This document shows positions 1,882 through 20,783 of a stretch of 20,783 nt of DNA, one piece after another. Position 1 is the stretch's first letter. Every line of letters starts with the position of its first letter. The notes beneath the pieces were generated by a model. The model saw only the letters and a program-made list of their open reading frames with translations. It was not told the origin of the DNA and did not search any database. Both the position numbers and the translations under genes were made by a program. Source of the stretch: Chrysophaeum taylorii (lineage: Eukaryota > Sar > Pelagophyceae > Pelagomonadales > Pelagomonadaceae); contig JAQMWT010000516.1 in the NCBI GenBank assembly GCA_029834535.1, forward strand, positions 1-20,783. Reading direction: 5' to 3'.

Positions 1882-4800
1882 GTGTATGACTTCTGTCGTA
1901 CACAACTCAACGTGCACATGCGCACCCTCTACTCCGATGCATTCAAGCCTTACTTTAGCCAGCACATTACCTCCCCGTACCGCGTCGATAAGGGCATTCA
2001 ACTCATTGCCTTCCCGCCGTACATGCACCATTTTAACTTTGAAGTTGAGTCTGCCATCGGTTTCATCGCCTCCGCCTCCTCAACTCGCCTTCGTTCTCTC
2101 CTTAATGCTCACTATCGTGGCGCCAAGATCGTGGAACCCGCTATCATGTTCCCATGGGCGGTGATACACACCGTTCAAAGCTATAACCTTCTCCCGAACG
2201 CCACGCTCGAGCGCATTCATCATGCTATTCTGAGTCCGCAACAGCTACTCTACAACCAACTCAGCACTCCCCAACACGATATGCTCAAGATTTTTGGCGC
2301 TGAATGTTACCTCCTATTGGAGCCCCATAAACACCACAAGTGGGCACCGTGCCGCCGCAAATATCTGTATCTCTGTTGCGCCAACGCGCAAAACCCGCTC
2401 GTCTCCCCACGCGTCGACCATCTCGCTGACGTCGCCCTCAACGCTGAAAACGGACAAATTCGTATTTCGTCCAAGCTGCAATTCCTCTACATGTTGCAGC
2501 ATCCTACTCCTGATCCTGAATTAGCTCCTCCGCCACATGCTCCTTCCGCGCCCTTCTCGCTCACACCCCACGCCACTATGCAAGACCATGCCATTCAGAG
2601 GGGGACAAGGACTTTTCATCCTCAGAGGGGGCACTCCCCACCTCCTTCAGCTCCTCCGTCTTCGTCCCCTACTCCGGCCTCTTCTCCCTCTTCTGACGCT
2701 ACCGCCGACGAATCTGGCTCTATGTCACCGCCGCCCTTGCTTCCTTCTTACAAAGACCTTTTTGCACAAGATGACCTCATTCTTGTTCCAGGTTCCAAAC
2801 AGCCTAACACTCGCAAGGCCACTTATATGAAAACTATCCGAGCCCGGTTACAGGCGTCTACTATTGGTGCTTACAAGGCCGCTGGTGGCAAGCTCGCCGA
2901 TTTCCGCTGGGATCTTCGCCACCACTTTCTTACGTTCAAGTCTCCCGCCCTCTCCGCCCTTCATCTCCGTGGTGGTATCCTCTGGTCTGCTATCTGCTCA
3001 GAGGGGGAACATGCGTTGTTAGCTCGTCTTCTTCTCCCGTTGCGTACTGACTTACTTGCCCGCTACCCGCACGTCGATGGTTACTTCGCCCACGCCAAGT
3101 GCGCATCCAGCATCCCAGCTGCAACCTTTTTAACTGCTGATGGTTCACCTGCGTGCCCTATTCCTCAGCCCCTTTTATCTGCGTTCACTGAACACGCTGC
3201 TGCCTTCGGCACTTCTTCCTTACAATATGCACTTACGTACCTGGCGCCGACCAGCTTTATTGATCACAACTCATCCGAGTTTGGCGCTACTTCTGCATCT
3301 CTGGCTGACTTGGAGGAATACCTTCTGGTCTCTACAGAGTTTATCACCCAGGTCTTACGTACCGACCCTACTATCCATATTCAACTGGAATCTGCCCCTA
3401 CTACTCCTACCGACGCTGTTTCCGCTTATCCCGAAGTTGCGCACACTGCCTCGACCGCAACGTCGCTAAACTATAATTCACCAGCCACTGTTGGTCCTGA
3501 CGAATATAAGGTCCAAGAAGCGGACGTTTCCATTGACGAATATAAACTTAAGTGCCTCCACGGTTTGTCGCCTGAAAACAGGCACGCCTACCTCAAGGCC
3601 ATCGCCAAGGAACTCCACGACATTATCCGCTTTGGCTGCTTCAAACTTTCCTTACCCGACGGTGTCTCTCGTCCTATTGACAGCAAGATGGTGCTGAAGA
3701 TTAAAACAGACTCTGCAGGCAAATACGTTAAGCACAAGGCTCGCCTCGTACTACGTGGCTTCCTAGCATCTCTTGGCGCCGATTTCTTTGGTACCTTCAG
3801 CCCCATGGTCACTATGACCGCAACCCGGGTACTACTAGCTATTGCAGCATACAAGCAATTGCCTGTCTACCACGTCCCAAACGCCTTCGTTCAGTCTGAC
3901 ATCGATGCCAATGTCTATGTTCAATTACCAGACGGCATCAAGCTTATCGACCCCGATGACGCTAAGTACAAGGGCCGACGTCTACCGAAACTGCTGAAGT
4001 CACTTTATGGACTTAGGCAATCACCATCCCTTTGGAACAAAGAGATAGACGGCTTCTTCCGTAGCCTTGGTTACAAGCGCCTGCATTCGGACTCTTGCCT
4101 ATATGCTCGAGTATCCGCACATGCTAAGTTCGTCGTATGCAGTCTGTCTGTAGACGACATTGTTATTGTGTCCAATGACGACCCACTTCGTACTGAATTA
4201 CAGGATGCCCTCCGCAAACGGTATGCTGTAGAGCAGTTTGAACCTGTCCATACCCTCCTAGGCATGCGTGTGTGTCGCACATCTGACGGCTCCATTTCTC
4301 TGGATGTGCAAGCCAAGCTGGATGAACTCTTCGCTGATCACCCAGTCTTGCAGCAACTGACCCCGCTTAAATATCCTATGTCATCGTCCTTCAAGTATAA
4401 AGATGGCACTCCCAGCACTGAAACAGAGTTGTACATCAACTCGCACTTTGCCACCCTCCTTGGCAAGCTGGTGTTCATGCAAGTTGCCTGCAGACCTGAC
4501 TTCTCGCAAGCCTTGGGCAGATGTTCGCGTGGTATGCATGCACCCACATATGTTCACGTCCAAATGCTAGAGCATTTGCTTCGCTACCTCAAGAAGCCGG
4601 AAAACCGCTCACTTCGCCTCTGGTTTCACCCTAAAGGTAATGCCATTGAAGCTCACCTTCGCACTGTCTCCGCTAATCGAATTGATCTATCCACTGTGGT
4701 CGACTACCAACCACAGGATGTATCTACTGGACAGTTTGACCCCTTAGTTGCCATGGTTGACGCTGACAATGCCCCTTCCTTAGCACAGGAAGATAGGAAA

Positions 4801-5337
4801 TCTACCACCGGGTTTGTCTTCTATCTTTTCAACTGCCTTATTGGTTGGAAAAGCAAACTTCAACCGATTGTCTCCTGCTCAACTCACGAAGCTGAGTTGA
4901 TTGCCCTCAGTATTTGTGCTGATGAAGCTGTTTGGCTACGCAAGCTGCTGTTGGAACTCTCCTTTGTCGTCAACCCCACCTTCTACGTCAACAATGCTAA
5001 TGGTGAGAACACCGCTGACCCTGTTGACTTCGATGACAATGACAACCCAATTGCTGAAGATATGCGCTTCATCAGAAGCCTACCTCTTTTGTCTGACAAT
5101 GCTGCCGCTGTTCACACCTCTAATAACCCAGATGGGTCCTCTCGATCCAAGGCACTGTCGACCAGATGGTTTAAAATCCGTGAGTATATCTCGCTACAGA
5201 AAATACGAGTCCATCATGTTCCCGGCAAGCTGAACGTGGCGGATGGTTTTACAAAGCCACTTGCTGCTGAGTTCTCCACCTTTCGCTCTCTACTCGGTAT
5301 GCATCATGCCACTGACGACAATCCTTTACAGGATTGA
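1882..5337 (+). CDS. Copia A pol: integrase (partial), long linker, reverse transcriptase, RNase H
   Basis: The 1151-codon ORF opens with GTG only because the upstream frame is shifted, so 1882 is not a real start. Residues 1-115 are the rest of the integrase core, with Asp19 in LYSDA and Glu56 in EVES as the likely second and third triad residues. Residues about 210-560 are a Pro/Ser-rich stretch and an extra region of unknown function. RT begins near residue 590 with SKMVLKIKTD and HKARLVLRGF, followed by TFSPMVTMTATRVLLA. The active-site box is SVDD (residues 756-759) in place of YVDD. The position of the first catalytic Asp (normally MDVKTAF) is His664 in YHVPNAF, so polymerase activity is doubtful. 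RNase H shows VDADNA, EDRKSTTGFVF, STHEAEL, LLSDNAAAVH and NVADGFTKPL. The stop is TGA 5335-5337. Confidence 0.93.
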   Translation: MYDFCRTQLNVHMRTLYSDAFKPYFSQHITSPYRVDKGIQLIAFPPYMHHFNFEVESAIGFIASASSTRLRSLLNAHYRGAKIVEPAIMFPWAVIHTVQSYNLLPNATLERIHHAILSPQQLLYNQLSTPQHDMLKIFGAECYLLLEPHKHHKWAPCRRKYLYLCCANAQNPLVSPRVDHLADVALNAENGQIRISSKLQFLYMLQHPTPDPELAPPPHAPSAPFSLTPHATMQDHAIQRGTRTFHPQRGHSPPPSAPPSSSPTPASSPSSDATADESGSMSPPPLLPSYKDLFAQDDLILVPGSKQPNTRKATYMKTIRARLQASTIGAYKAAGGKLADFRWDLRHHFLTFKSPALSALHLRGGILWSAICSEGEHALLARLLLPLRTDLLARYPHVDGYFAHAKCASSIPAATFLTADGSPACPIPQPLLSAFTEHAAAFGTSSLQYALTYLAPTSFIDHNSSEFGATSASLADLEEYLLVSTEFITQVLRTDPTIHIQLESAPTTPTDAVSAYPEVAHTASTATSLNYNSPATVGPDEYKVQEADVSIDEYKLKCLHGLSPENRHAYLKAIAKELHDIIRFGCFKLSLPDGVSRPIDSKMVLKIKTDSAGKYVKHKARLVLRGFLASLGADFFGTFSPMVTMTATRVLLAIAAYKQLPVYHVPNAFVQSDIDANVYVQLPDGIKLIDPDDAKYKGRRLPKLLKSLYGLRQSPSLWNKEIDGFFRSLGYKRLHSDSCLYARVSAHAKFVVCSLSVDDIVIVSNDDPLRTELQDALRKRYAVEQFEPVHTLLGMRVCRTSDGSISLDVQAKLDELFADHPVLQQLTPLKYPMSSSFKYKDGTPSTETELYINSHFATLLGKLVFMQVACRPDFSQALGRCSRGMHAPTYVHVQMLEHLLRYLKKPENRSLRLWFHPKGNAIEAHLRTVSANRIDLSTVVDYQPQDVSTGQFDPLVAMVDADNAPSLAQEDRKSTTGFVFYLFNCLIGWKSKLQPIVSCSTHEAELIALSICADEAVWLRKLLLELSFVVNPTFYVNNANGENTADPVDFDDNDNPIAEDMRFIRSLPLLSDNAAAVHTSNNPDGSSRSKALSTRWFKIREYISLQKIRVHHVPGKLNVADGFTKPLAAEFSTFRSLLGMHHATDDNPLQD
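2596..2631 (+). promoter_or_regulatory. Paired internal polypurine-tract-like motifs
   Basis: CAGAGGGGGACA (2596-2607) is followed 25 bases later by CTCAGAGGGGG (2621-2631). Both resemble the 3' polypurine tract of this element (CTCGAGGGGG, 7391-7400). They lie in the integrase-RT linker and are translated there as QRG. Some LTR elements prime plus-strand DNA at a central polypurine tract; that role here is inference. Confidence 0.4.
2997..3007 (+). promoter_or_regulatory. Internal polypurine-tract-like motif
   Basis: CTCAGAGGGGG is identical to the motif at 2621-2631, but here it is read in a different frame (SEGE). Shared DNA in different frames argues for a nucleic-acid role over a conserved peptide. 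Confidence 0.35.
3453..3473 (+). repeat. Copy 1 of a 21-bp motif encoding TxxSLNY
   Basis: This is GACCGCAACGTCGCTAAACT plus A, translated TATSLNY in the pol frame. It lies just before the RT domain begins. It differs from copy 2 at two positions. Confidence 0.75.
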
Positions 5338-6370: not shown

Positions 6371-6536
6371 CCACCATGTGATTCATACTGTTATCCGATC
6401 GCGCGTACAACATCTTAACAACTACGCATCATCATCTGATGATACAGAACCGCCCACCATGTGATTCATACTGTTATCCGATCGCGCGTACAACATCTTA
6501 ACAACTACGCATCATCATCTGATGATACAGAACCGC
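6371..6536 (+). repeat. Perfect 83-bp tandem duplication
   Basis: 6371-6453 and 6454-6536 appear identical base for base, both beginning CCACCATGTGATTC. As 83 is not a multiple of three, the duplication shifts the frame of ORF X and creates its early TGA. With no visible differences between copies, the event is recent relative to the decay of the rest. Confidence 0.92.
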
Positions 6537-7400: not shown

Positions 7401-7714
7401 TGCAGAGAAATCTGCTGCCTCTTACCCTTATCCGTCCGCCGAGAACGTGATCTCTTCCTTACCCTTCTTCTTCCTTTCTACACAATCAAATAGTCCTATG
7501 ATTTGTGCCTACGCTCATCATCATGGTCTAGCGCGTCCCGAGGTATGTAGCACTATACACTTAACCTTTCTCGTGTAGTGCTAGATGCCGCCTGTCGTGT
7601 TCTGAGGATATAGGGGACATAACCTTCATTCCCCGAATTAATTACTTCCAGACGTTCACGATGAGACGGGATGGTTTCCCAGGTGACTTACCACTGCTTG
7701 CTGAATGCTCTGCA
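7401..7714 (+). repeat. 3' LTR of copia A (314 bp)
   Basis: The LTR begins TGCAGAG immediately after the polypurine tract and ends CTCTGCA, a perfect 7-bp terminal inverted repeat with the canonical TG...CA ends. No second copy is present in this window, in agreement with loss of the 5' end. An imperfect hairpin at 7548-7583 (TAGCACTA and CAC paired with GTG and TAGTGCTA around a 12-base loop) may be an RNA structure. The first AATAT after the LTR could be a 5-bp target-site duplication, but the microsatellite makes that untestable here. Confidence 0.8.
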
Positions 7715-7909
7715 AATATAATATAATATAATATAATATAATATAATATAATATAATATAATACAATACAATATAATATAATATAATATAATATAATATA
7801 ATATAATATAATATAATATAGTATAGTATAGTATAATATTATATAATATAATATAATATAGTATAGTATAGTATAGTATAATATAATATAATATAATATA
7901 ATATAATAT
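7715..7909. repeat. AATAT pentanucleotide microsatellite
   Basis: About 39 units of AATAT, with occasional GTATA and CAATA variants, start at the base after the copia LTR. Open frames through it (Tyr/Ile/Leu repeats) are artefacts of a period-5 repeat. Confidence 0.97.
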
Positions 7910-8163
7910 GGCTGCGCAGATATGCACCTACGTGCTCTCTCTCATGCGCGCGCCCACGTGGTTTGTGCATTGGCGCGGCGAACCCTGGTTTGTGCATCGC
8001 AGGTCGCTGTTCCAGTTTGGAGCGCCGCTGCCGAGATCTCGCTGAGGCGCGAGTGCCCGTGCAAAGTGTCCCTCCCGCCAAGAAGAGCGGTCCAGGATTA
8101 CGCGCGCAGGACTACGATCGGCCAATGATCTTCAAAATAACGCCAAGTCGTTATCGTCGGATC
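7910..8163 (+). other. Left half of a sequence split by the gypsy insertion; coding-like
   Basis: Composition returns to GC-rich after the microsatellite. One frame reads PPAKKSGPG and later DRPMIFKITPSRYRRI right up to the insertion point, ending in the target site GATC. Removing the insertion joins it to 15300. I recognise no domain, and frame breaks follow on the right side, so this could be an old gene fragment or chance. Confidence 0.3.
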
Positions 8164-8499
8164 TGTAGTGGTTTTCTCTCAGATACCCGCCCCTCTTGGC
8201 CGGACCAGGGGCCTCAACAACCCTTTCTCCCAACCCGAACCGCGGGTGAAACCACCACACGCCCGATCTCAGCGTAATACCTCACGCCATCACGAAATCG
8301 GACAATCAAATGAGGGTAATAGCAAGAAGACAGCAAGAAAGTAATACAAATGCCTGGTACATTGGGTTCAGTGGAAGTACGGGTGAGGATGTCGCGATGA
8401 CCCCCCCCCCCCCATCATTGCAAGGTCAGTACCAGAGCAACAATCAGGGTAAGTCGGGTGGCAGGCAGGCAAGTGGGGGGAATGGGCGTTACTGCCACA
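8164..8499 (-). repeat. 3' LTR of the gypsy element (336 bp)
   Basis: In + orientation it begins TGTAGTGGTTTT and ends ACTGCCACA. It matches 14963-15295 except for 8 substitutions and a C run of 13 against 10. On the element's own strand this is the downstream LTR. Confidence 0.95.
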
Positions 8500-8512
8500 G
8501 GAGCCCCCTACT
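8500..8512 (-). promoter_or_regulatory. 3' polypurine tract of the gypsy element
   Basis: On the - strand AGTAGGGGGCTCC lies directly before the 3' LTR. It is a short, purine-rich but imperfect tract in the expected place. Confidence 0.5.
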
Positions 8513-8683
8513 TGAGATGAAGTCGTCCTCGACTTCGAGGGTGACGAAGGTCACGCTCACGAATGGTACGATAAGCTCGGTCAGCTACATCAGCAGGAAC
8601 TTTGTTGCTGTGGAGGCCGAAGTTTCTGACGAGGACATCTATTTCATCCGGGCGAAAATCAGTCACACAGGGTTCACAGCCCT

Positions 8684-9289
8684 CTATGTTTGGTCGTAAG
8701 CGTGTGAAGCTACCTCCGTCCGGGTCCTTGTATCTGGTCTTGAACGTCGCTCAGCCAGGGGCTTAGTAGGAACAAAAACACGAGGATCATCGCGCGGTCC
8801 CAAATCGGTATAGTAGTGAAGCGCAGCTGTATCATTGTCGTGGTCATATTCTTCGTAGACTTCGGCAACATAGATACGCTTCTTCCACGCGTTGGATCGT
8901 CCTTTAACCCTGAAAATCGCGAACTTACCATGCTTGAAACGGCCGCGGTCTGAAGGTAAATGCAGAGGGACTGAAGAAGTGTCGGTGGTTGGCACTTTCA
9001 AAGGCACAATCTGTTGTACAAATACTGCAACTGATTCAGCATCATCGTCGTTGACGTCCTGAATTTCGTAAACGACGGGAGGGATCTTTCTGGTAACTAT
9101 GTAAGGCCCGCGCCAAATGGGCCGTAGCTTGTGGCGCGTCTTAGGCACGAAACGCAGAACATAATCACCTGGGGAAAACTGGATGTCAATTTGGTGGGCA
9201 TCATAGTTGAGTTTTTGGCTCTCCTGTGCTTTCTGGTGAGCTCGTGTAACGAGTCGACTATAAAATTCAATCTTGTTCTTAAAGTCCAC
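8684..9289 (-). pseudogene. Gypsy integrase C-terminal part with extra module
   Basis: The 201-residue frame begins DFKNKIEFYSRLVTRAHQKA, the usual helical tail of a gypsy integrase core. It then gives FSPGDYVLRF and KLRPIWRGPYIVTRK, the GPY/F-type DNA-binding motif. Beyond it lies HGKFAIFRVKGRSNAWKKRI followed by a YVAEVYEEY strand and LHYYTDLG, a pattern of short aromatic-rich strands like the small beta-barrels (Tudor, Agenet or chromo type) that some integrases use for chromatin targeting. That identification is inference. The GTG at 9289 is not a true start: the core lies in another frame upstream and is separated by TAA. The stop is TAG 8684-8686. Confidence 0.8.
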
Positions 9290-9308
9290 CTAAGTCTGAT
9301 GACGTGAT

Positions 9309-9635
9309 TTATTGCGGTAGATCACGCTGTTCACTCAAAAGATTGTAATCGGGTGGTAACAAGGGTTGCTTGCCAGTACGCATCATGAAAGGTGAAATCT
9401 TCGTTCCCGGAATGTACATCCTATTGTACGTGAATGCCACATATGGGAGGAAATTCGACCAATCTGGCTGACGCTGTTCATCGATCGCATCTCGCAAGAA
9501 GGCTTCGATAACTCGGTTGACACGTTCAGTGTGGTTACTCTGAAGGTGATACGGAAGGGTAGTACGATAACTTACGTTGAATTGACGAACAATCGTGCGA
9601 AATAACCTGTCCGCGAACTCCGAACTCATTTCCAT
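9309..9635 (-). pseudogene. Gypsy integrase core, second half
   Basis: Starting after the second catalytic Asp, this frame reads EFADRLFRTIVRQF, YHLQSNHTERVNRVIEAFLR (with the catalytic Glu in TERVNR), then DWSNFLPYVAFTYNR, all typical of retroelement rve cores. It is out of frame with the first half (9535-11124) because GAGTTCG is tandemly duplicated (+ strand CGAACTC at 9614-9620 and 9621-9627), adding seven bases. It ends at an in-frame TAA, 9309-9311, before the C-terminal part, so the integrase is interrupted twice. Confidence 0.85.
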
Positions 9636-11124
9636 TATCCGTGACTATGCACCGTGGGAGACATCCATCGAGTAAAATCTTGTCCACAAACGCGTTCAAA
9701 ATTGAATAGTCATGTTTTGTGTTGATCAGAGCTAATTTCAAGAAATGCGACGCTGCATCGTACATTGCGAGTATGTACGTGTACAGGTCAGCGCCTCGCA
9801 GAGGTCCAATCAAATCCATACCTAGGACATAGCAATCTCCGACGCGATTCGGTTGACAGAGCAAGCCATGACGCCTAGGCATGGTGGATCGAATCTTCTG
9901 GCAAATAATGCAGGCATTGACGAACTCATTAACTGACGATGAGACGTTTGGCCACCAATACCGTTCTAAGATTTGATTCGCTGTGGAGTCTCGTCCTACA
10001 TGGCCTCCGAACAATCCTCGGTGATGCATGGCGATTACACGCTTTCGCATAGACTGAGGGACCACAATAAGACGTTGAGAATCCGAATCATCGACCTTAT
10101 ACAACACATCGCTATCAACTTCATACGGTACGGATGACTGCTCGTCTTGATCTTTCTGTTCAGAGTCGAGATTTCGTCTGATGCGCTTGCATGTGTCATC
10201 TTCAGCTTGTTCTTTCGCTATCTCATCGAGAGTGATCTCATCCTCCGCTTGATCCGCAAAAGGGAGACGTTCGACGGAGTCAACTGGCTCAGACTCGTAC
10301 GAGAATTGAGGCGGTTGTACGTTCTGTCGCGTACTAACTGCTACCATAGCTGCGGTGGGTCCGCTGTCCGTCGGTATAGGCATCGTCACCGAAGAGAAGG
10401 TAAAACAAGCTGTGCCAGGTACATCGGTGGGGATTTCTTGGAAAATCAAAAAAGCTTCATTGATCGGTTCCCCGTCTTCGTCTTTCTCGATCAATTTGTC
10501 GATAGGGTTGCGCGACAGACAATCCGGGATGCGCATGCCAGGGGAATTTCCAGGCTTGTATCCGAGCTCCCGGTCGAACGCAGCAAGCCGCATAGCCCAT
10601 CGTGCTAACTGTCCAGACGTATGATTCGAATCCCGAAGAAACGTTAAATTACGATGTTCCGTCTCTAATTTCGTCTGATGACCTTCGATAAAAAATCGGA
10701 AATTTTCAAGAGCGGAGAGTACTGCGAGGAGTTCCAAGCGCCGATGATCATACTTCCTCATCGACTTAGGCACGGTTCGATTCCAGTATTCAATAACTCT
10801 CTCTTCGATTCTTTCTCTTCCATCGTCGTCAACGACTGGTACCTTTTGAAATAGGTAAGCACCCAACCCATGCGCGGAAGCATCAGTTCGAATGTAGAAA
10901 GGCAACGAGTAATCAGGATGGTAGACACCCTTCGAAGTGACAATAGCCTCGTTGATGGCATCCCAAGCTTCCTGACACTCTTTCGTCCACTCGAATTTTA
11001 CGTCCGGCAACGTCAGTTGTCTTAATGGCTCTGCAACCTTCGCAAAATTCCTTACAAAACGCCGGCAAATACTCCCCATTCCAAGGAAAGACCGCACTTG
11101 CTTCTTAGGGTCAGCATCCGACAA
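9535..11124 (-). CDS. Gypsy pol: RT connection, RNase H, integrase HHCC finger and first half of core
   Basis: Residues 1-70 hold the RT thumb/connection signature KKQVRSFLGMGSICRRFVRNF and EPLRQLT. RNase H follows with Asp81 in RTDASAHGLGAYLFQ, Glu131 in RRLELLAVLSALENF and the MRIPDCLSR end motif; the usual TDH is TEH here. After a linker (about 205-330) comes the integrase zinc finger, with HH in AMHHRGLFGGHVG and CC in NACIICQ. The core begins with the first Asp in GMDLIGPL and the second in VTDNGNEF. The frame then runs out of the domain because of the 7-bp duplication at 9614-9627. RT proper lies upstream in other frames, so the ATG at 11124 is internal to an ancestral polyprotein. Confidence 0.92.
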   Translation of the reverse strand: MSDADPKKQVRSFLGMGSICRRFVRNFAKVAEPLRQLTLPDVKFEWTKECQEAWDAINEAIVTSKGVYHPDYSLPFYIRTDASAHGLGAYLFQKVPVVDDDGRERIEERVIEYWNRTVPKSMRKYDHRRLELLAVLSALENFRFFIEGHQTKLETEHRNLTFLRDSNHTSGQLARWAMRLAAFDRELGYKPGNSPGMRIPDCLSRNPIDKLIEKDEDGEPINEAFLIFQEIPTDVPGTACFTFSSVTMPIPTDSGPTAAMVAVSTRQNVQPPQFSYESEPVDSVERLPFADQAEDEITLDEIAKEQAEDDTCKRIRRNLDSEQKDQDEQSSVPYEVDSDVLYKVDDSDSQRLIVVPQSMRKRVIAMHHRGLFGGHVGRDSTANQILERYWWPNVSSSVNEFVNACIICQKIRSTMPRRHGLLCQPNRVGDCYVLGMDLIGPLRGADLYTYILAMYDAASHFLKLALINTKHDYSILNAFVDKILLDGCLPRCIVTDNGNEFGVRGQVISHDCSSIQRKLSYYPSVSPSE

Positions 11125-11156
11125 AGTGCCTGGGATTGGCGTGTGTCTGATGGCTT

Positions 11157-12196
11157 CTAAACTCCTCGGTTATGGAAGAAGTCCGTTCGGGGTAGACAAA
11201 TGGCCCAACAACTCAATGACTTCTTGCATGAAGTGGATCTTCTTGATCTTGGCGCTGTACCCTTCCAAGGCGATATGGGGAATAACTTGCACAGGCATTG
11301 CAATTGATTCTTAGTATCCGCGTGACCGGCGATAATATCGTCGATATATGCCACGAGATCACGATATAGCCATTTCGACAAGCCAGTGTTTAGCTGCTTA
11401 AAAAATAAAATTCCGGCTGGTTTGACTCCCAAAGGCAGACGCATGTAGCTGTACGCTCCCAGAGGACTAGGGAAGGTGACCACATCTTGTGCATCTAGCG
11501 ACAATCGTAAATTGTGATAGCCCCAACGAATATCCAAACTGGAACGACAGAACTTGTCGATGAGAAACATCAACGCGTCAGCCATGCTCACACTCGGCCA
11601 GCTATCATCCTTGAGCAATGCATTGAGGCGCCGTAGGTCGACAGCTGCTCTGTAAGCATTGGAAGTGCCAGGCTCAGCACCTTTCTTAGGCAACATCAAA
11701 ATAGGGAACCCCATGGAGAATTCGCGGGACGAATAACTCCGTCTCGGGTCCATGCTTCAATCTGCATCCGCAAACATTCAATCTTTTCTTTCGACAACCG
11801 ATATGGCGAGAGTTTGACGGGAGTCGGGTTCTCTTCTTTGAACCGGAGCGTCACTTCAGGTGAATCAACAGGTCTCATCACATCATCGAAAAATGCCCAC
11901 GAATACGAGATTAAGTGCTTCATCATCAGCTTCTCGTCATCATCTAAAGCAGGATGCTCTGTAATACCCAATTCAGTCATCACCTCTTCGACCTGCGCGA
12001 CGGTCGGAGGGATGACCTGCATGCTCTCCTGATCCGCTAAATGAGGAGGCATCACCGGTAAAGGTTGACCATGTTCGTCGTGAGGCGCGTCCGCCCACGG
12101 AACGTCGTACTTATTGAAATACGCAGGTCGCTCCTTCGCGGTGCCTTCTTCTTCAGCAGTTGCGGAGGGCTGGTTGCCGGCTTGGTTGCTTTGCAT
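11157..12196 (-). pseudogene. Gypsy reverse transcriptase, frameshifted
   Basis: Two overlapping frames cover the RT fingers and palm. The first (12196-11696) ends with PYRLSKEKIECLRMQIEAW and DGVIRPANSPWG, the standard start of a gypsy RT. The second (11753-11157) carries FPILMLPKKG, AYRAAVDLRRLNALL, SSLDIRWGYHNLRL with the first catalytic Asp (Asp74), and AYIDDIIAGH with the catalytic pair (Asp138, Asp139). The switch lies in the GGGG of CCATGGGGTTCC near 11712. After residue 150 the frame changes again: the RT continuation (SAKIKKIHFMQEVIELLGHL) is in a third frame near 11200-11270. Catalytic residues survive, but the product cannot be full length without several recodings. Confidence 0.9.
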
Positions 12197-13406
12197 AACA
12201 GCAGTGGCGACGGTGGCCCCCCTGCAAAAGATTGAGCCGTCCCAGGCGATGTAACCGAAGGTGGTGGCGGGGTGGTGGAGGCAGCAGCTGATGGTGCAGG
12301 ACTCGCAGGAGAATAGAGTTCATCGGGCGAAATCCATGACACACTTCGAGTGGCAGGGTCGAGCGTTGGAATGCGCGACTCTACAGCAAAAGGTGAAAAC
12401 CGTAGAATATGGTGATCGGGTTGGGCTATCGTAGTCGTCGCAATATTCCGCAACTTACCCAAATTTCGAAGTGAAGGGTCAAACGAATTGTGCACTGCTA
12501 GCGCGATCCGCGTCATAGTCGCGGGTGGCACCATACTGCCAAGCATCTTCATAGCTGCTGTCTCTGAAACTTTCTCACCCCATTGCCACGTAGCAGGAAC
12601 GGTCATAATTTCCTGGTGCATCTGCAACGTGAGTGGACGGGTGTTCGAGAAATGAGGTCCCATCTGCAATTTGTTGCGCGTCACTGTGAAGGCAGGGCCG
12701 ATAGCCGGGCGCGTAGATGAGAAACTGTTCACTATAATGAGCGGGTGACCACCTGTAAATCCCAACGCTGGCCCAAAACGGTCCCGTAAATTCGGTGGTA
12801 CACGCGATAATAACGGCAGTTCCAAGCGAACATTGCAAGCAAGTAGGCGCGTGCGCGAGCACAGCAATTCTGGTGTGATACTATAGAAATCGACAATACG
12901 CGGCACATAAAATTGGTGATGCACAAAAGGGATCACTGATGGTTCCTGCTCGAGCGTCCATCGTCCAATTACATAAGGTGCGTTGCGGAAATGACGCAGG
13001 ACCCAAGAAGTAATAGTAGCGCCCTTGCGTGCGTCCCTGTAGTGCAAATTGGCAGTCGACCCATAGATACACGGCGGACTTGCGTGAAAATAAGAATGCT
13101 TCCAAAATCTGAATGTAAATACGACAACACCAAGTCGTATGTACGACGATGAGATTTCCCTAACTCATGCAAAACATAGGGAATCTTCGGAAAATTGAGC
13201 TCAAAGGTGGCTCGGGCTTGAGGACAAGCATCCAAAGCCAGGACAATGCGAAATGAACTGCCATATAGCTCATTGCATCGCCGGATACCCAACGTTGATC
13301 CTCCAGCGCCAGCAAAGTAGACGACGACAAAGGTGTAGGTGATGGGTATCCAAACCAAGGAGGCGTGCTTGGATAGCAGGTCCTTATCAGTCGCCTCCAT
13401 CTCCAT
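12052..13406 (-). pseudogene. Cytosine-C5 DNA methyltransferase inside the gypsy element, split by one frameshift
   Basis: C5 methyltransferases transfer a methyl group from SAM to cytosine in DNA. In the frame of 13406, motif I is YFAGAGGSTLGIRR (13319-13278), and motif II is LALDACPQARATFELNFP. The frame changes near 13100 (GATTTTGG on the - strand). In the frame of 13047, motif IV is HASPPCIYGS with the catalytic Cys codon at 13069-13071. Motif VI is probably TLEQ (Glu at 12949-12951) and motif VIII CSRTRLL (12861-12841). Motif IX is RPLTLQMHQE (12639-12610) and motif X GSMVPP (12540-12523). A short target-recognition region lies between VIII and IX. The domain of about 275 residues is compact like bacterial or viral enzymes. 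After about 12490 a Pro/Ser-rich linker leads toward RT. All three catalytic signatures are kept; only the frame is broken. Confidence 0.88.
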
Positions 13407-13414
13407 TTCTGGTG

Positions 13415-13423
13415 TTTTTTTTT
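13415..13423 (-). promoter_or_regulatory. A9 slippery run joining gag to the methyltransferase frame
   Basis: On the - strand gag reads GTG AAA AAA AAA CAC. The methyltransferase frame opens from the -1 position right here (ACA CCA GAA ATG). A AAA AAA in the zero frame is a usable -1 slippery heptamer. A programmed shift as in other gag-pol elements would fit, as would a simple loss or gain of a base in a homopolymer. I see no convincing downstream stimulatory structure. Confidence 0.4.
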
Positions 13424-14494
13424 CACTTCTTCATCTGGAGGTGGCTCAGGAGGAGGTCTGTCACTTAAGACATCCTCCTCGACTTCATTCTCGTCAACAG
13501 CAGCCGTGAGAGTCGCATGACAAACGTCCTCAGTGGCTTCTAGCTGCATGTTGACACATCCTTCATGCGGCATGATCTCGCCTTCCATCTTACGCTGCAA
13601 CTGCATCCACCACGCGTTCACCTCCTCCCGGTCCTTCGTAATTTGCCCACTGAGATTCGAAAACGTGATACGAGTCATACCAGCAGCTCCTTTCTTGATA
13701 TGAAGTATCTCTTCTTCGTTACGAGGACGTGCTGAACCGGGGTCAGTATGATGCTGCGGGGTAGGCTCCGGTCGACTTCGCGGTGGCTGATCGTCGGTCA
13801 GTGCCGATACAGCGTCATCTTCTTCGGGCGTAACACGCGTAGCATCCGGAGAGGCTGGCCGTGCCTCTCGAGCATGCGCCCGCGTGGATTCCTCCACCAT
13901 TCGTCGAAGTCGATCGTTGTCGATCCGCTGCCGCTCCACTTCTGAGCGTTGTTGTTGCGCGTCGCGGCGGGTGCGCTCAAGTTCACGTATGACTTGCTCG
14001 ATCTGCGACTGGTACATCTCGAATCGTTCGTTGATGGTCTGCAGAATCTCGGGGTCGGTATCCACGCGAAAATCTGTCGCCCTCGTATTCGCGGATGGTG
14101 GCCTAGGAGGTGCACTCTCCTCTGGTCCACGCATCGCCGTAAACGGTCCGGGTTCCGCTCGAGATGGCTCCGTAGTATTCATCGCACGTTCGTAGGGTCG
14201 TGCGTACGGGAACGTCGGCTCACCCGGTCTTGAAGTTGCGTCTGGCGCAACCGTAGCTCCCCCTTCGCCAGCGCGTGGATCCGGAAGGATGATCACGCTT
14301 GGGGGGTTGTCGAGGCTGTCCGATGACCTTGCCTCTCTTCTGATGCCGCTTTCCTCGGCTTCCGGCCGTGGAAAGGGCGTACTGAACGGTGTTCTTCCAA
14401 GAGACGAAAGTGGAGTCGCTGCACTGAATCGTTGCAGACGCTCCTGTGCGTCCCGAAACCACTGCGGTCGTTCTGTCATTGGCCTCTCTGCCAT
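13415..14494 (-). CDS. Gypsy gag-like protein with coiled coil, capsid apparently truncated
   Basis: The start is ATG 14492-14494 after a leader of about 450 bases. The formal ORF runs to 13160, but after residue 360 (KKK at the A9 run) it only reads the methyltransferase region out of frame, so the gag part is residues 1-360. Residues 20-140 are Pro/Ser/Arg-rich and disordered-looking. Residues 146-212 are a long charged helix with heptad-like spacing (INERFEMYQSQIEQVIRELE), a likely coiled coil for multimerisation. Residues 272-305 (TRITFSNLSG and VNAWWMQLQRKME) resemble the beginning of a gypsy capsid. The rest of the capsid, CCHC nucleocapsid and protease are not found. The end is acidic and Pro-rich (PPPEPPPDEE). 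Confidence 0.75.
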
Positions 14495-14940
14495 GACCGC
14501 GCTTTGCCCGGATAATAGGATTAATCCGAACGCTCACAACTCGCTTGTTGTATTCTTTTCGTCAGACGACAATTGCCGGCAGCCGTCTGACTGCGCGCTG
14601 TACCGGTGCGCTGGACTTACGGAAGTTTTTGCCTTGCGCGTGAAGACTATGGACGGCCTTCCCGGTGCTATCGCTCGCCGTCAGGGAGGTGGTCTGCCTC
14701 GCGCGATCTAGGTTAGGACTTACAACACTGCCACTCAGTTGCGATATGCACAGATATGCAAAATGAGTCCTAGTGACTCCGCTCCCAGTTCGATCCGAAT
14801 CACGAAAAATGAACCCCGCGGCGGTACCCGTGATCCCCTGGATCTTCACCCACAAATGCGTCGGCTTCGCACTCACTCGACCGTTACGAACCGACTCGCC
14901 GCCGAAAAAAAGGAGGTCGATAGTCCGGGAGTTGGACTAT
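14495..14940 (-). other. Gypsy 5' leader between primer binding site and gag
   Basis: About 450 bases lie between the primer binding site and the gag ATG. Short overlapping frames exist on both strands, but none is conserved-looking. Packaging or dimerisation signals would be expected here, and I cannot identify them. Confidence 0.4.
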
Positions 14941-14943
14941 CGA
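14917..14943 (-). other. 10-bp perfect hairpin overlapping the primer binding site
   Basis: TCGATAGTCC (14917-14926) pairs exactly with GGACTATCGA (14934-14943) around a 7-base loop. The outer three base pairs overlap the end of the primer binding site, so primer annealing and hairpin formation would compete. Confidence 0.65.
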
Positions 14944-14961
14944 TTCCCGTTTCTGAGACCA
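14941..14961 (-). promoter_or_regulatory. Primer binding site complementary to a tRNA 3' end
   Basis: On the - strand, one base after the LTR terminus, the sequence reads TGGTCTCAGAAACGGGAATC followed by G. Read on the + strand it has the geometry of a tRNA end: CGATT as the last five T-loop bases, CCCGT as T-stem, seven acceptor-stem bases, discriminator A and CCA. The tRNA species is not identified. Confidence 0.8.
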
Positions 14962-14962
14962 C

Positions 14963-15295
14963 TGTAGTGGTTTTCTCTCAGACACCCGCCCCTCTTGGCC
15001 GGACCAGGGGCCTCAACAACCCTTTCTCCCAACCCGAACCGCGGGTGAAACCACCACACGCCCGATCTCAGCGTAATACCTCACGCCATCACGAAATCGG
15101 ACAATCAAATGAGGGTAATAGCAAGAAGACAGCAAGAAAGCAATACAACTGCCTGGTACATTGGGTTCAGTGGAAGTACAGGTGAGGATGTCAAGATGAC
15201 CCCCCCCCCATAATTGCAAGGTCAGTACCAGAGCAACAATCAGGGTAAGTCAGGTGGCAGGCAGGCAAGTGGGGGGAATGGGCGTTACTGCCACA
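14963..15295 (-). repeat. 5' LTR of the gypsy element (333 bp)
   Basis: Begins TGTAGTGGTTTT and ends ACTGCCACA in + orientation, a direct repeat of 8164-8499. For the - strand element it is the promoter-bearing LTR. I see no strong TATA box. Confidence 0.95.
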
Positions 15296-15640
15296 GATCG
15301 ACATCTGCGACTCGAAACGCGCCGAAGAACATCACCGAGTTCCCCCCAATCATCATCGTGCTCAACAAACACGCCCGTCGTCATCAAGATAATCCTGAAC
15401 GGGCGTCATGTCATCATCGAAAACTATCTGTGGGCGACCAGTAATATCGGTCATCTCCGCTGCCGTCATGGCGCTCCTCATCATCTCGAGACATGCCACA
15501 ACACTTCAGCTCAAAGTGCCGTCGCGCGCGAAAATGGTACCAGTCCCGGTACTCTCTGGTGCCGGAACAATCCGATACTACCCCTAACCTGCGCATTTAT
15601 TTCCGTTATTAGAATAGATCTACAAATAAGAACCACATAA
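15296..15640 (+). other. Right half of the sequence split by the gypsy insertion; coding-like in shifting frames
   Basis: It starts with the GATC target-site copy. GC3-rich codons read ICDSK (frame 1), then NITEFPPIIIVLNKH (frame 2), then TPVVIKIILNGRHVIIENYL (frame 3). The hydrophobic beta-strand patterns look real, but the frame slips twice within 150 bases, so if this was a gene it is decayed, or spliced in ways I cannot see. The family is unknown. 15641-15907 downstream holds nothing I can support. Confidence 0.3.
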
Positions 15641-18496: not shown

Positions 18497-20158
18497 ATGT
18501 CAAAACAAAAACCAATATCCACTGCGGATATTTATAAGCAAGAACAAATCCTCGTTGATAAACTCAACGCTGGATTGCGCTTCCAAGACAACTCAACGAA
18601 GGTAAGATTACAAATTGAGATGCTTCGCAGACATATGACAATTCCATACGTGGACGCGTTATTCTCAGTCTTTATTGGAATGGTGTAAACTCTACGAGAC
18701 ACGCTCTGGGAACAACTCGACTCACGATCCTGAAGTTTTAAAGCTAGTTGATCCTAACGACGTTCGTCCGTTATTGGAGTTCCTGTTAAAGATATATAAT
18801 GAAACAGAATTTTCATCTAACCGACGCTTGGATAAACCCGCATCATGGATTCCATACATCCCTGGTACTACCGCTACCAAGCCACCTAAGGTATTATTGA
18901 TGGATACTATTCATCAATCCCACGACTCCCTAAACAATGCTTACTCATTGTTAGCTACTGTGGCTGGTCAGTCCGGCTTTAACGCTCGTAAACTTCGTAA
19001 TGCGAAAGATAAAGCATCGACAATTTTACCTCGTGACACGTCTTACTATCGTCCACCTTCAAATTATAACGTTAAAGGCACCAGTTTCGACCGTCCTGTC
19101 TACTCACACTCCTCTAACCGCAACTCACGCTCTAACATGTCTCTTATGGACCGGGCCACTTATCAAGTTGATCGTCTTCGCCACCTGTTTGGTAAATTAC
19201 AGGAAGCGAATCCCAATCCTTCCACCGATTCTAAAATGGTACAGGAGGAAATGAAAAGCTTTCTGAGTACCCTCTGGACAACCGCTTATCAAGCTTCGAC
19301 ACAGTCCTTGGATCCTGACGAAGCCACCCAAGTTCATCTGTACTTATCTCGAGTTGATACTATGTCCAATACCACTGTGAGCCTCTTAGAAGCCGATAAG
19401 GAATCTCATGTTTCAGAAGAAAAGTATCAAACTGAAATATCTGCTCCGGAAGCGCCCCCCAGTGATGCGGAGCAGAGGGGGACAGCTGATACAGAGAAAA
19501 TGCTCCACACTTTTCTGTCCATTAAAGATGATGAAATCGATAACAGCCCTCAGCCGCTATTGGAGCACATAAATGCTAAAGCTCAGGATGCTATCGTTCG
19601 TCGTCAAGCTCGGGAAACTTCCTCGCACTCTGAGCTCCCCAGTAATCTACCCAACGAGTATAATAAAGATGGCACAGATCCCCCCGTGTTGCTACCAAAA
19701 TTAAACACTGGTTTTACACTCGTCGTTGTGCCTTCCGAACAAACGCAAAGTTTCATGACACAGCACGTGTTTGGTCAAAGCTCAACACATGCCTGTTATG
19801 CAACAATGCTTAAACTGCACAACGAATACAATTTGCCGCTAATGACTACGCCAGGATATGCTGACACATGTGCTTCTCAACATGTAATTAACTTTAAACG
19901 TTATGCTGATCCTATCCACGTCGCAAAGCTACCCGAGTCCTTGTCACCTGCTGTCCAGACTGCTACGGATACGCAGAGAATCACGCATGCTATGATTTTA
20001 AGGACTGTCATTCCCACTCTCCCAAAGCATCCAAATGTGGGATATGTAAAGCTAGACGTTTTCCTACCAAAGCAAAACGACCATAACGATCCCGATCTGC
20101 ACATCATCAGTATGACTAATGGGGAGGAGATAAGCTTGGTATACATCTTTATGGAGTT
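18497..20158 (+). pseudogene. Copia B gag-like region and aspartic protease site
   Basis: ATG 18497 opens MSKQKPISTADIYKQEQILV, and this frame ends at 18688. The same protein continues in the frame of 18675 (EWCKLYETRSG), so one base was gained or lost near 18660-18680. The middle is Ser/Thr/Asn-rich and hydrophilic, as in gag. At residue 397 of the second frame, YADTCASQHVINF matches the copia protease pattern D-S/T-G-A-S-x-H, with Cys in place of the Gly after Asp-Thr. A Gly-to-Cys change there would be expected to harm activity. No CCHC nucleocapsid motif is visible. The readable frame changes again near 20140. The formal ORF continues to 20495, but its last 115 residues look like shadow sequence. 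Confidence 0.65.
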
Positions 20159-20461
20159 GAATTTAAAGGACAATCATCTATCCAGAGTAAAATTGATGTT
20201 AATGTCAAGATTACTTTGTTTAGACTCCGCAACCTGTTGCCTACTCTACCAATTTATGCGCTACAACAAGCAAAAGCCCGTAAAATGGAACTTCGCTCAC
20301 TACAGTTCAGACTATGTGCTTTTAATGAACAACGCGAAATGCTTAAACAATATTCCACCCTCATGGAACGCGCAATTTACGTCCCATGGCTTAAAACCAT
20401 CCTGGAGTCAATGCATTCGCAGCTGCCTTACATACGCAAGCATTTCACACCACCCGTATGA
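20150..20461 (+). pseudogene. Copia B continuation after the protease, helical, unknown
   Basis: In the frame of 20216, extended upstream, the sequence reads LYGVEFKGQS, then NVKITLFRLRNLLPTLPIYA and a helix-rich charged stretch (MELRSLQFRLCAFNEQREML). It closes at TGA 20459-20461. Typical copia elements would show a GAG-pre-integrase domain here, which I do not see. Function unknown. Confidence 0.4.
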
Positions 20462-20758
20462 CGCAAGGTTACCACACGTTTGCTTCATAAAGTAACTTCA
20501 TCTCCTAGCCCACGAACACCTACTGTAACTCTACTTTGCTCTGGGATGTCCACTCCTGCATTCTTGGCTTGCGCTTCTAATGACTTGCAAATCAACATCA
20601 ACGTTAAAGTTCTTGTTGAGAGCGACGACAATATCACGCACATGCTACGAAGACGATTTGGTAATTCCATCGAAGTTTTCCCATCCCTACCCAAGTTCCT
20701 TATACATATCCCCATCGAGCATCGGACGCTGAACGTGCACGATATTACACCGATATAG
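20462..20758 (+). pseudogene. Methyltransferase-like motif I-II segment in copia B
   Basis: This frame continues that of 20150-20461 after a single TGA. It contains TVTLLCSGMSTPAFL, then a strand VKVLVESDDN and a helix ITHMLRRRFGNSIEVF. The layout resembles motif I and II of DNMT3-like C5 methyltransferases (hydrophobic strand, F-x-G-I-x-T-G turn, helix, about 23 residues, then a strand ending in S/E with Glu binding the SAM ribose). Glu47 (20618-20620) would be the ribose ligand. The spacing from ST to the acidic residue (23) is close to that in the gypsy methyltransferase (22). There is no PC motif before TAG 20756-20758. It could be another Rossmann fold or chance, hence the low confidence. 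Confidence 0.3.
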
Positions 20759-20783
20759 TGGAACTGACATCACCATGCCACAA

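Follow-up and report, generated by a model that had tools for sequence, protein, structure and literature searches.

A divergent C5-cytosine methyltransferase in the Pol region of Ty3/gypsy retrotransposons, and apparently of copia-type elements, in the pelagophyte Chrysophaeum taylorii

Cytosine methylation often serves host genomes as a means of silencing transposons, and it is therefore a paradox that some transposons carry a methylating enzyme themselves, a situation described for dinoflagellates and a charophyte. The paradox is raised again by a stretch of 20,783 nucleotides from the pelagophyte Chrysophaeum taylorii (contig JAQMWT010000516.1; the whole stretch is called the window below), in which a sequence-only reading had placed a C5-cytosine methyltransferase (C5-MTase, or MTase) inside a Ty3/gypsy retrotransposon. 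Is the enzyme a genuine part of the element, and what would an element do with it? As judged from motifs and profile comparisons, the domain is almost certainly a divergent C5-MTase, located in Pol between a protease-like region and the reverse transcriptase (RT) of a Ty3/gypsy family, here called F1. Its presence in gypsy elements is not a one-off but a real, abundant and selected feature. As for its use, the best overall explanation, to which we give a probability of about one half, is that the Pol-encoded MTase methylates the element's own complementary DNA (cDNA).

The domain is recognized by motifs and by profiles alike. In the window, the order I, II, IV, VI-like, VIII-like, IX-like and X-like is held on the minus strand, the strand of gag and pol, with motifs I and II in one frame (open over 12972-13430) and IV to X in another (open over 12055-13164); the numbering and consensus of the motifs are those that we take to be standard. 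Against PF00145, whose Pfam cut-off is 22 bits, the two window pieces score below the threshold (E 4.1e-4, 20.3 bits, and E 4.1e-3, 17 bits), whereas the excised MTase of P0002, an unbroken F1 copy, scores above it (E 1.2e-8, 35.2 bits) and also matches phrog_116 (3.8e-10) and, far under the cut-off of that family, TIGR00675 (3.1e-4). The corresponding domain of F1b, a sister gypsy family, reaches E 6.2e-6 and 26.3 bits when excised and 21.0 bits, below cut-off, when scored in a longer frame. A profile built from five F1 and F1b sequences aligns almost from end to end with a DNMT2-type profile of 120 sequences (E 1.6e-10 and probability 96.9, as against E 0.33 for the control with reversed columns), motifs I, II, IV and X being in register, a match that is silent on closeness to this class versus others because DNMT2 was the sole reference profile used. 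Of the motif list in the sequence-only reading, the order and the strand are thus upheld, with I, II, IV and X in register, and the form of VI, VIII and X needs the qualification given below.

The element that surrounds the domain is of the Ty3/gypsy type, and the claim of intact long terminal repeats (LTRs) with a target-site duplication proved correct. The LTRs begin with TG, end with CA and are 97.6% identical (327 identities, 8 mismatches and 3 gaps between 8163-8500 and 14962-15296), and the 4-base GATC stands on both sides (Table 1). Elsewhere in the genome there are at least 38 further LTR-length matches at 92-96% identity (40 scored of 455 candidates; 42 rows, two of which are the window element itself and two short). 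The order RT, RNase H, integrase zinc finger in the window is the Ty3/gypsy arrangement; the order from RT through RNase H to integrase is also found in the single frame of P0002, and LTRs and a short target-site duplication are found in the window. The window copy itself is defective. Compared with an unbroken relative, it contains several frameshifts, one within the MTase, and a 2.6 kb internal deletion that took the C-terminus of gag and the protease-like region; in the alignment to locus L022, the window matches over 14347-13575 and picks up again at 13585 past 2.6 kb of L022. The placement of the MTase between gag and RT, as first read, is hence true of the window only because of this deletion, and unbroken copies have the order protease-like region, MTase, RT. 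Similarly, the interval 12052-13406 initially assigned to the enzyme does contain the domain but includes about 130 residues of linker.

Table 1. Positions of the described features in the window (1-20,783)
Feature	Position	Strand	Remark
F1 Ty3/gypsy-type LTR retrotransposon, defective copy	8164..15295	-	flanked by GATC (8160-8163 and 15296-15299)
F1 5' LTR, TG..CA	14963..15295	-	
Primer-binding-site candidate adjoining 5' LTR	14937..14961	-	begins TGG on the minus strand
gag N-terminal remnant	13575..14494	-	deletion of 2.6 kb joins remnant to pre-MTase stretch
C5-cytosine MTase domain	12451..13373	-	two frames, split at about 13104-13164
MTase motif I FAGAGGST	13293..13316	-	in register with DNMT2 profile
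MTase motif II LALDAC	13224..13241	-	in register with DNMT2 profile
MTase motif IV ASPPC, catalytic Cys	13069..13083	-	in register with SPPC of DNMT2
Presumed MTase motif VI TLEQEP (EQE for ENV)	12940..12957	-	out of register with ENV
Presumed MTase motif VIII RTR	within 12841..12861	-	out of register with RxR
MTase motif IX-like RPLT	12628..12639	-	
MTase motif X position GSMVPP	12523..12540	-	in register with DNMT2 profile
Linker and RT, two frames	11157..12196	-	PF00078 E 8.3e-8 for 11157-11753
RNase H, integrase zinc-binding domain, integrase core start	9535..11124	-	PF17917 1.1e-22, PF17921 2.9e-18, PF00665 0.03
Integrase remainder, two frames	8684..9635	-	PF22938 7e-6, 26.5 bits against cut-off 27
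F1 3' LTR, TG..CA	8164..8499	-	
F3 copia-type element, 5' part: gag-like, protease-like YADTCASQH (read by eye), MTase-like start	18675..20783	+	
F3 MTase-like domain start	20462..20778	+	frameshift ahead of VELTSPCT; motif-level only
F3-related copia element, integrase/RT/RNase H part	1882..5337	+	PF07727 4.6e-38

The family is abundant in the genome searched (70.8 Mb in 697 contigs). With the window MTase piece as query, at least 135 matches were obtained (121 scored of 892 candidates), corresponding to at least 120 F1 loci after rows within 2 kb were merged, a count that takes in a few apparently near-duplicate contigs (the C6 and C268 rows match). Among unbroken copies, P0001 has a 1,812-codon frame with MTase and RT above the Pfam cut-offs and a weak gag match (E 0.039), and P0002 has a single frame of 2,115 codons with MTase, RT, RNase H and integrase, of which MTase, RT, RNase H and H2C2 score above cut-off and the integrase core reaches 1e-6 (29.4 bits, the cut-off being 32.6). 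Together they give the composite order gag, protease-like region, MTase, RT, RNase H, integrase. When the F1 RT served as query, 135 of 1,118 candidates were scored and at least 135 rows were obtained. Of these rows, 92 have 76% identity or more and are assigned to F1, and 43 have 61-64%. An MTase match lies within 3 kb upstream of the RT at 73 of the 92 F1 loci (69 found with the window piece and 4 by further search) and, at 2 of the 13 loci that belong neither to these nor to the six discussed below, farther upstream, at 4.1 and 5.1 kb. In F1b, whose frames of 3,063 and 3,067 codons span both MTase and RT, an MTase row was found no more than 3 kb away for 23 of the 43 RT rows, the other 20 having none among the matches listed. 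The F1b MTase, with at least 129 matches in the genome (129 scored of 1,019 candidates), is 41% identical to that of F1 (locus L050, the 3,067-codon frame, one of the 43 rows at 61-64% RT identity), compared with 28.5% for the protease/linker part, and GxGGS, LALD, SPPC, EQE, RxRLL and VP are identical across five aligned rows, four from F1 and one from F1b. These numbers bear on the suspicion that a bacterial or viral MTase was inserted once, or that the assembly is chimeric, a suspicion to which the damaged window copy and the twelve bacterial genomes assembled from the same culture (PMC10366177) lend some colour. It is rejected because of copy number, with at least 120 F1 loci and at least 129 F1b rows; in the copies read, moreover, the MTase is in frame with RT, and its substitution ratios are far under 1.

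These ratios of nonsynonymous to synonymous change (dN/dS) were obtained pairwise by the Nei-Gojobori method with an own script, from open-domain copies only and from pairs with dS > 0.02. For the F1 MTase, the median is 0.112 (13 distinct sequences, 74 of 78 pairs used, values from 0 to 0.73), and for the 22 deep pairs, in which dS is near saturation, it is 0.062. At one set of seven F1 loci, the MTase gives 0.07 (19 of 21 pairs) and RT 0.073 (18 of 21); the protease/linker part, from seven loci, gives 0.215 (20 of 21). For the domains of the two copia-type families described below, the values are 0.179 in F2 (28 of 28 pairs) and 0.077 in F3 (21 of 21). Constraint on the F1 MTase is about equal to that on RT and stronger than that on the protease/linker. 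Purifying selection has very probably kept the domain while two gypsy families or more diverged from each other.

Gypsy elements are apparently not the only carriers. In a PF00145 search of the genome, 123 of 474 candidates were scored, and at least 57 rows resulted, two of them host-type genes (C634 and C621) and 55 others. Thirteen of these 55 were read, and every one is a member of a single copia-type family, F2 (L003-L008, L032-L039). In L032, a 1,952-codon frame contains a protease-like DGGAS, the MTase (349-475), rve (1016-1110; 0.006, below cut-off) and RVT_2 (1686-1933; 1.6e-38); no LTR pair was found in L032 or L037, loci that may not span the whole element. The F2 domain scores above the PF00145 cut-off (8.1e-9, 35.8 bits), matches phrog_363 (4.1e-9) and has motifs II, IV (LPC), VI (ENV) and VIII (KxRYLAV) in register with DNMT2, a canonical motif I not being seen. 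Profile against profile, F2 and DNMT2 match at E 1.7e-4; in an hmmsearch of single sequences with the DNMT2 profile (E for four sequences), F1 and F1b were found and F2 (0.19) and F3 (0.3) missed. F3, a second copia-type family, is present in the window itself, where 18910-20783 is 94% identical to L042 and the contig ends at 20783. Its domain has at least 129 rows in the genome (129 scored of 1,061 candidates, including L042 and L044-L049). No significant profile score was obtained for it, the best being E 0.13 with PF00145 (5 of 7 rows) and 0.044 with phrog_116 (4 of 7 rows). Phrog_116 is the sole family matched in its library, one unrelated family ties with PF00145 at 0.13 in one row, and DNA methyltransferase is the family matched by most F3 rows in both libraries. 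With E 0.033 against the DNMT2 profile (reversed control, 0.41) and motifs I, II, IV, VI and VIII in register, the F3 domain is probably a C5-MTase. The protease-like region that precedes the MTase in these families has, as read by eye, a seemingly altered motif, DGMAD in F1 and F1b (L024, L050), DGGAS in F2 (L032) and DTCAS in F3 (window 18675-20495), the usual aspartic protease motif being DTGA or DSGA; no Pfam match to an aspartic protease was found in the F1/F1b and F2 frames or in the window frames scanned.

Between the domains of F1, F2 and F3, no relation was detectable by hhalign or blastp, and the place of the domain in Pol is alike in F1/F1b, F2 and F3, after a protease-like motif and before the next enzyme. 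It is somewhat favoured, on these sequence comparisons, that the domains of gypsy F1/F1b, copia-type F2 and F3 represent at least three separate captures into one niche of Pol; cytosine methylation would then be a recurrent, near-standard step in the life cycle of LTR elements in pelagophytes. If the captures are indeed independent, the position in Pol would be under strong functional constraint, pointing to an action on nucleic acid in the particle. Domains without detectable relation in gypsy and copia families of one genome would be expected under competition or a shared enemy, that is, if the MTase were a weapon by which rival elements or incoming DNA viruses are methylated and silenced and which made the host tolerate its carriers. 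An antiviral role has been published as speculation (PMC6338049); no sign of targeting was seen, and this use of the enzyme is considered improbable.

As to where the domain came from, the description of the enzyme as virus-like found no support. No relative turned up in scans of viral contigs with the F1 and F2 alignments, each of which used two short peptide patterns, nor in protein-database searches for F1, whether as part of a polyprotein (1,192 candidates) or alone (1,113), which depend on shared exact 5-residue words. The best PHROG matches of F1, F1b and F2 are to the phage C5-MTase families PHROG 116 and 363, weakly and partially, yet no relative on a viral contig accompanies them. In sequence searches of the PDB, the C5-MTase 8yf3 was matched weakly by one F1 sequence (E 0.42) and by the F2 profile (E 0.035), whereas the F1 profile matched nothing up to E 1 and F3 gave an unrelated match at E 1. 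Two host-type DNMT genes were seen (L002, L028) in the 71 Mb genome, set against several hundred element-borne MTase domains. One is DNMT2-like, its protein (contig C634) being identical to CTAYLR_008533 of C. taylorii; the other is larger, with a weak RING match, and is presumably DNMT5-like. The rbcL gene on contig C697 is of the red type, as judged by eye and from its matches in the PDB.

Retrotransposon-borne C5-MTases are a known phenomenon, which is met here in a new host group and in an unusual multiplicity of families. Statements on published work refer to the passages of each source that were covered. LINE, DIRS and Gypsy elements bearing DNMTs were described by de Mendoza et al. in 2018 (PMC5890265), and KnitGypsy-Dnmt3 of the charophyte Klebsormidium nitens is the closest analogue of F1, being likewise an LTR Gypsy element in several copies with a C5-MTase in the Pol open reading frame and under purifying selection (Ka/Ks < 0.2). 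The MTase of KnitGypsy-Dnmt3 has been placed in the DNMT3 family, and the repeats of the element follow a DIRS-like arrangement; F1 has ordinary LTRs, a 4-base target-site duplication, a stramenopile host and an MTase without a class assignment. Like C. taylorii, Symbiodinium harbours hundreds of retrotransposon-borne C5-MTases per alga (SymbioDIRS-Dnmt3 and SymbioLINE-Dnmt), with DNMT-less relatives coexisting and Ka/Ks < 0.2, similar to RT, as in F1; the elements concerned are DIRS, with a tyrosine recombinase, and LINE there, and gypsy- and copia-type LTR elements here (PMC5890265). The N6-adenine methylase DAM of DIRS elements is also an accessory domain of a retrotransposon polyprotein, albeit from an unrelated enzyme family, acting on another base and in another element class (PMC5890265, PMC6338049). 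Stramenopiles were listed by Morozov et al. in 2019 among the hosts of retrotransposons bearing DAM or DCM, both types being pooled (PMC6338049), and a 2025 survey speaks of orphan DNMTs and, with reference to de Mendoza et al., of the occurrence of DNMT3 in 'LTR Copia and DIRS' elements in streptophytes and dinoflagellates (PMC12344493). In the passages covered, a DNMT survey that includes pelagophytes contains no MTase-bearing element (PMC9998398), and the words 'transposon', 'transposable' and 'repeat' are absent from the main text, as far as covered, of the C. taylorii genome paper (71 Mb, 702 contigs; PMC10366177). A literature search, outside which lay many subscription papers and bioRxiv preprints, found no report of MTase-bearing elements of pelagophytes and, in the passages covered, none of MTase-bearing copia elements beyond the remark in PMC12344493. 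The host lies outside the dinoflagellates and the charophyte of the published cases; C. taylorii offers a culturable stramenopile with a small genome and hundreds of such loci, of gypsy and apparently copia type.

How methylation of its own cDNA might serve the element is put forward tentatively. The MTase would be made as part of Gag-Pol, packaged along with RT and integrase, and would methylate the double-stranded cDNA at its cytosines, either ahead of integration or as it takes place, such that new copies would arrive pre-marked. A host maintenance enzyme could keep the mark, a presumably DNMT5-like gene being present. The gain for the element might lie in the protection or camouflage of unintegrated cDNA and in control of its own expression. 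De novo CG methylation in yeast has been reported for SymbioDIRS-Dnmt3 domains (PMC5890265).

Four sets of observations weigh against this proposal. First, no methylation was obtained when KnitGypsy-Dnmt3, the nearest analogue, was assayed in yeast, a result regarded as inconclusive by its authors (PMC5890265).

Second, F1, F2 and F3 show no clear trace of the CpG decay that a strong, heritable CG mark would leave. Across ten F1 loci, C>T singletons are no commoner at CpG (28 of 388 sites) than at other C (95 of 1,173); in the small MTase-domain sets, the counts at CpG and other C are 6/110 vs 9/306 for F1, 16/118 vs 33/298 for F2 and 7/72 vs 39/267 for F3. The ratio of observed to expected CpG is 0.99-1.13 in F1 and F2 loci, 0.93-0.98 in F3 and 1.30 in the F1b locus, compared with 1.31-1.42 in three host-gene loci of higher G+C, and for TpG/CpA the mean lies at 1.06-1.14 in the loci of F1 and F2 and at 0.65-0.91 in the same three host loci, differences that could reflect mild decay or base composition only. 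This result would be compatible with methylation of RNA, with marks outside the CG context or of short duration, or with efficient repair. The first of these implies that the element's genomic RNA or primer tRNA is methylated by DNMT2-like chemistry, which would aid packaging, translation or priming. The DNMT2 group is known for tRNA methylation, and LTR elements prime on tRNA; the profile match of F1 and F1b to the DNMT2-type family points the same way, within the limit set by a sole reference profile. RNA methylation has been raised by de Mendoza et al. for SymbioLINE (PMC5890265). For F1, an RNA target is regarded as unlikely, though it is the foremost of the alternatives to methylation of cDNA.

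Third, the MTase is seemingly deleted at 6 of the 92 F1 RT loci (C335, C209, C394, C51, C248 and C311:80802), where the protease-like region and RT are 501-616 bases apart, instead of the usual ~1,597, with no MTase among the matches listed. At C248, C311:80802 and C394, the protease-like and RT matches report equal open-frame lengths (1,171, 753 and 768 codons, respectively), which suggests in-frame loss of the MTase; copies that do not encode the enzyme can therefore, it would seem, still multiply, perhaps with help in trans. Copies lacking the gene had been named beforehand as a sign of a one-off insertion. Such copies do exist, yet the six look like secondary loss, apparently in an MTase-less sublineage. 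Given that loci with and without the MTase occur in one family, the question of its role is testable.

Fourth, the canonical C5-MTase consensus is ENV at motif VI and GNxVPP at motif X, and neither is present in F1 or F1b, which have EQE with GSMVP(P/H) and EQE with ASVVPP, respectively, motif X being without its usual Asn. Moreover, EQE and RTR of F1 do not align to ENV and RxR of DNMT2, and motifs VI and VIII are accordingly named from order, spacing and eye because they are out of register in the profile alignment. The enzyme may thus have an altered activity, or even none, if the fold were kept for Pol assembly, nucleic-acid binding or binding of S-adenosylmethionine; the six loci without the domain could be counted in favour of such a structural role as well. 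The residues expected for catalysis tell otherwise: the motif IV Cys, the presumed VI Glu and both Arg of RxR are invariant in 11 of 11 F1 rows, one of which has Ser-Cys in place of Pro-Cys, and are unchanged in F1b despite 41% identity. A purely structural role is accordingly held to be quite improbable, and methylation of the element's own cDNA is retained as the best explanation.

The rest of the window contains a further copia element (1882..5337) that is 57% identical to F3 over 150 amino acids, with no MTase seen in the part present. Between two elements, at 7705-7910, a five-base A+T unit is repeated in an array that includes some variant units and was flagged as overlapping inverted repeats, and a perfect 83-base tandem duplication lies at 6371-6536.

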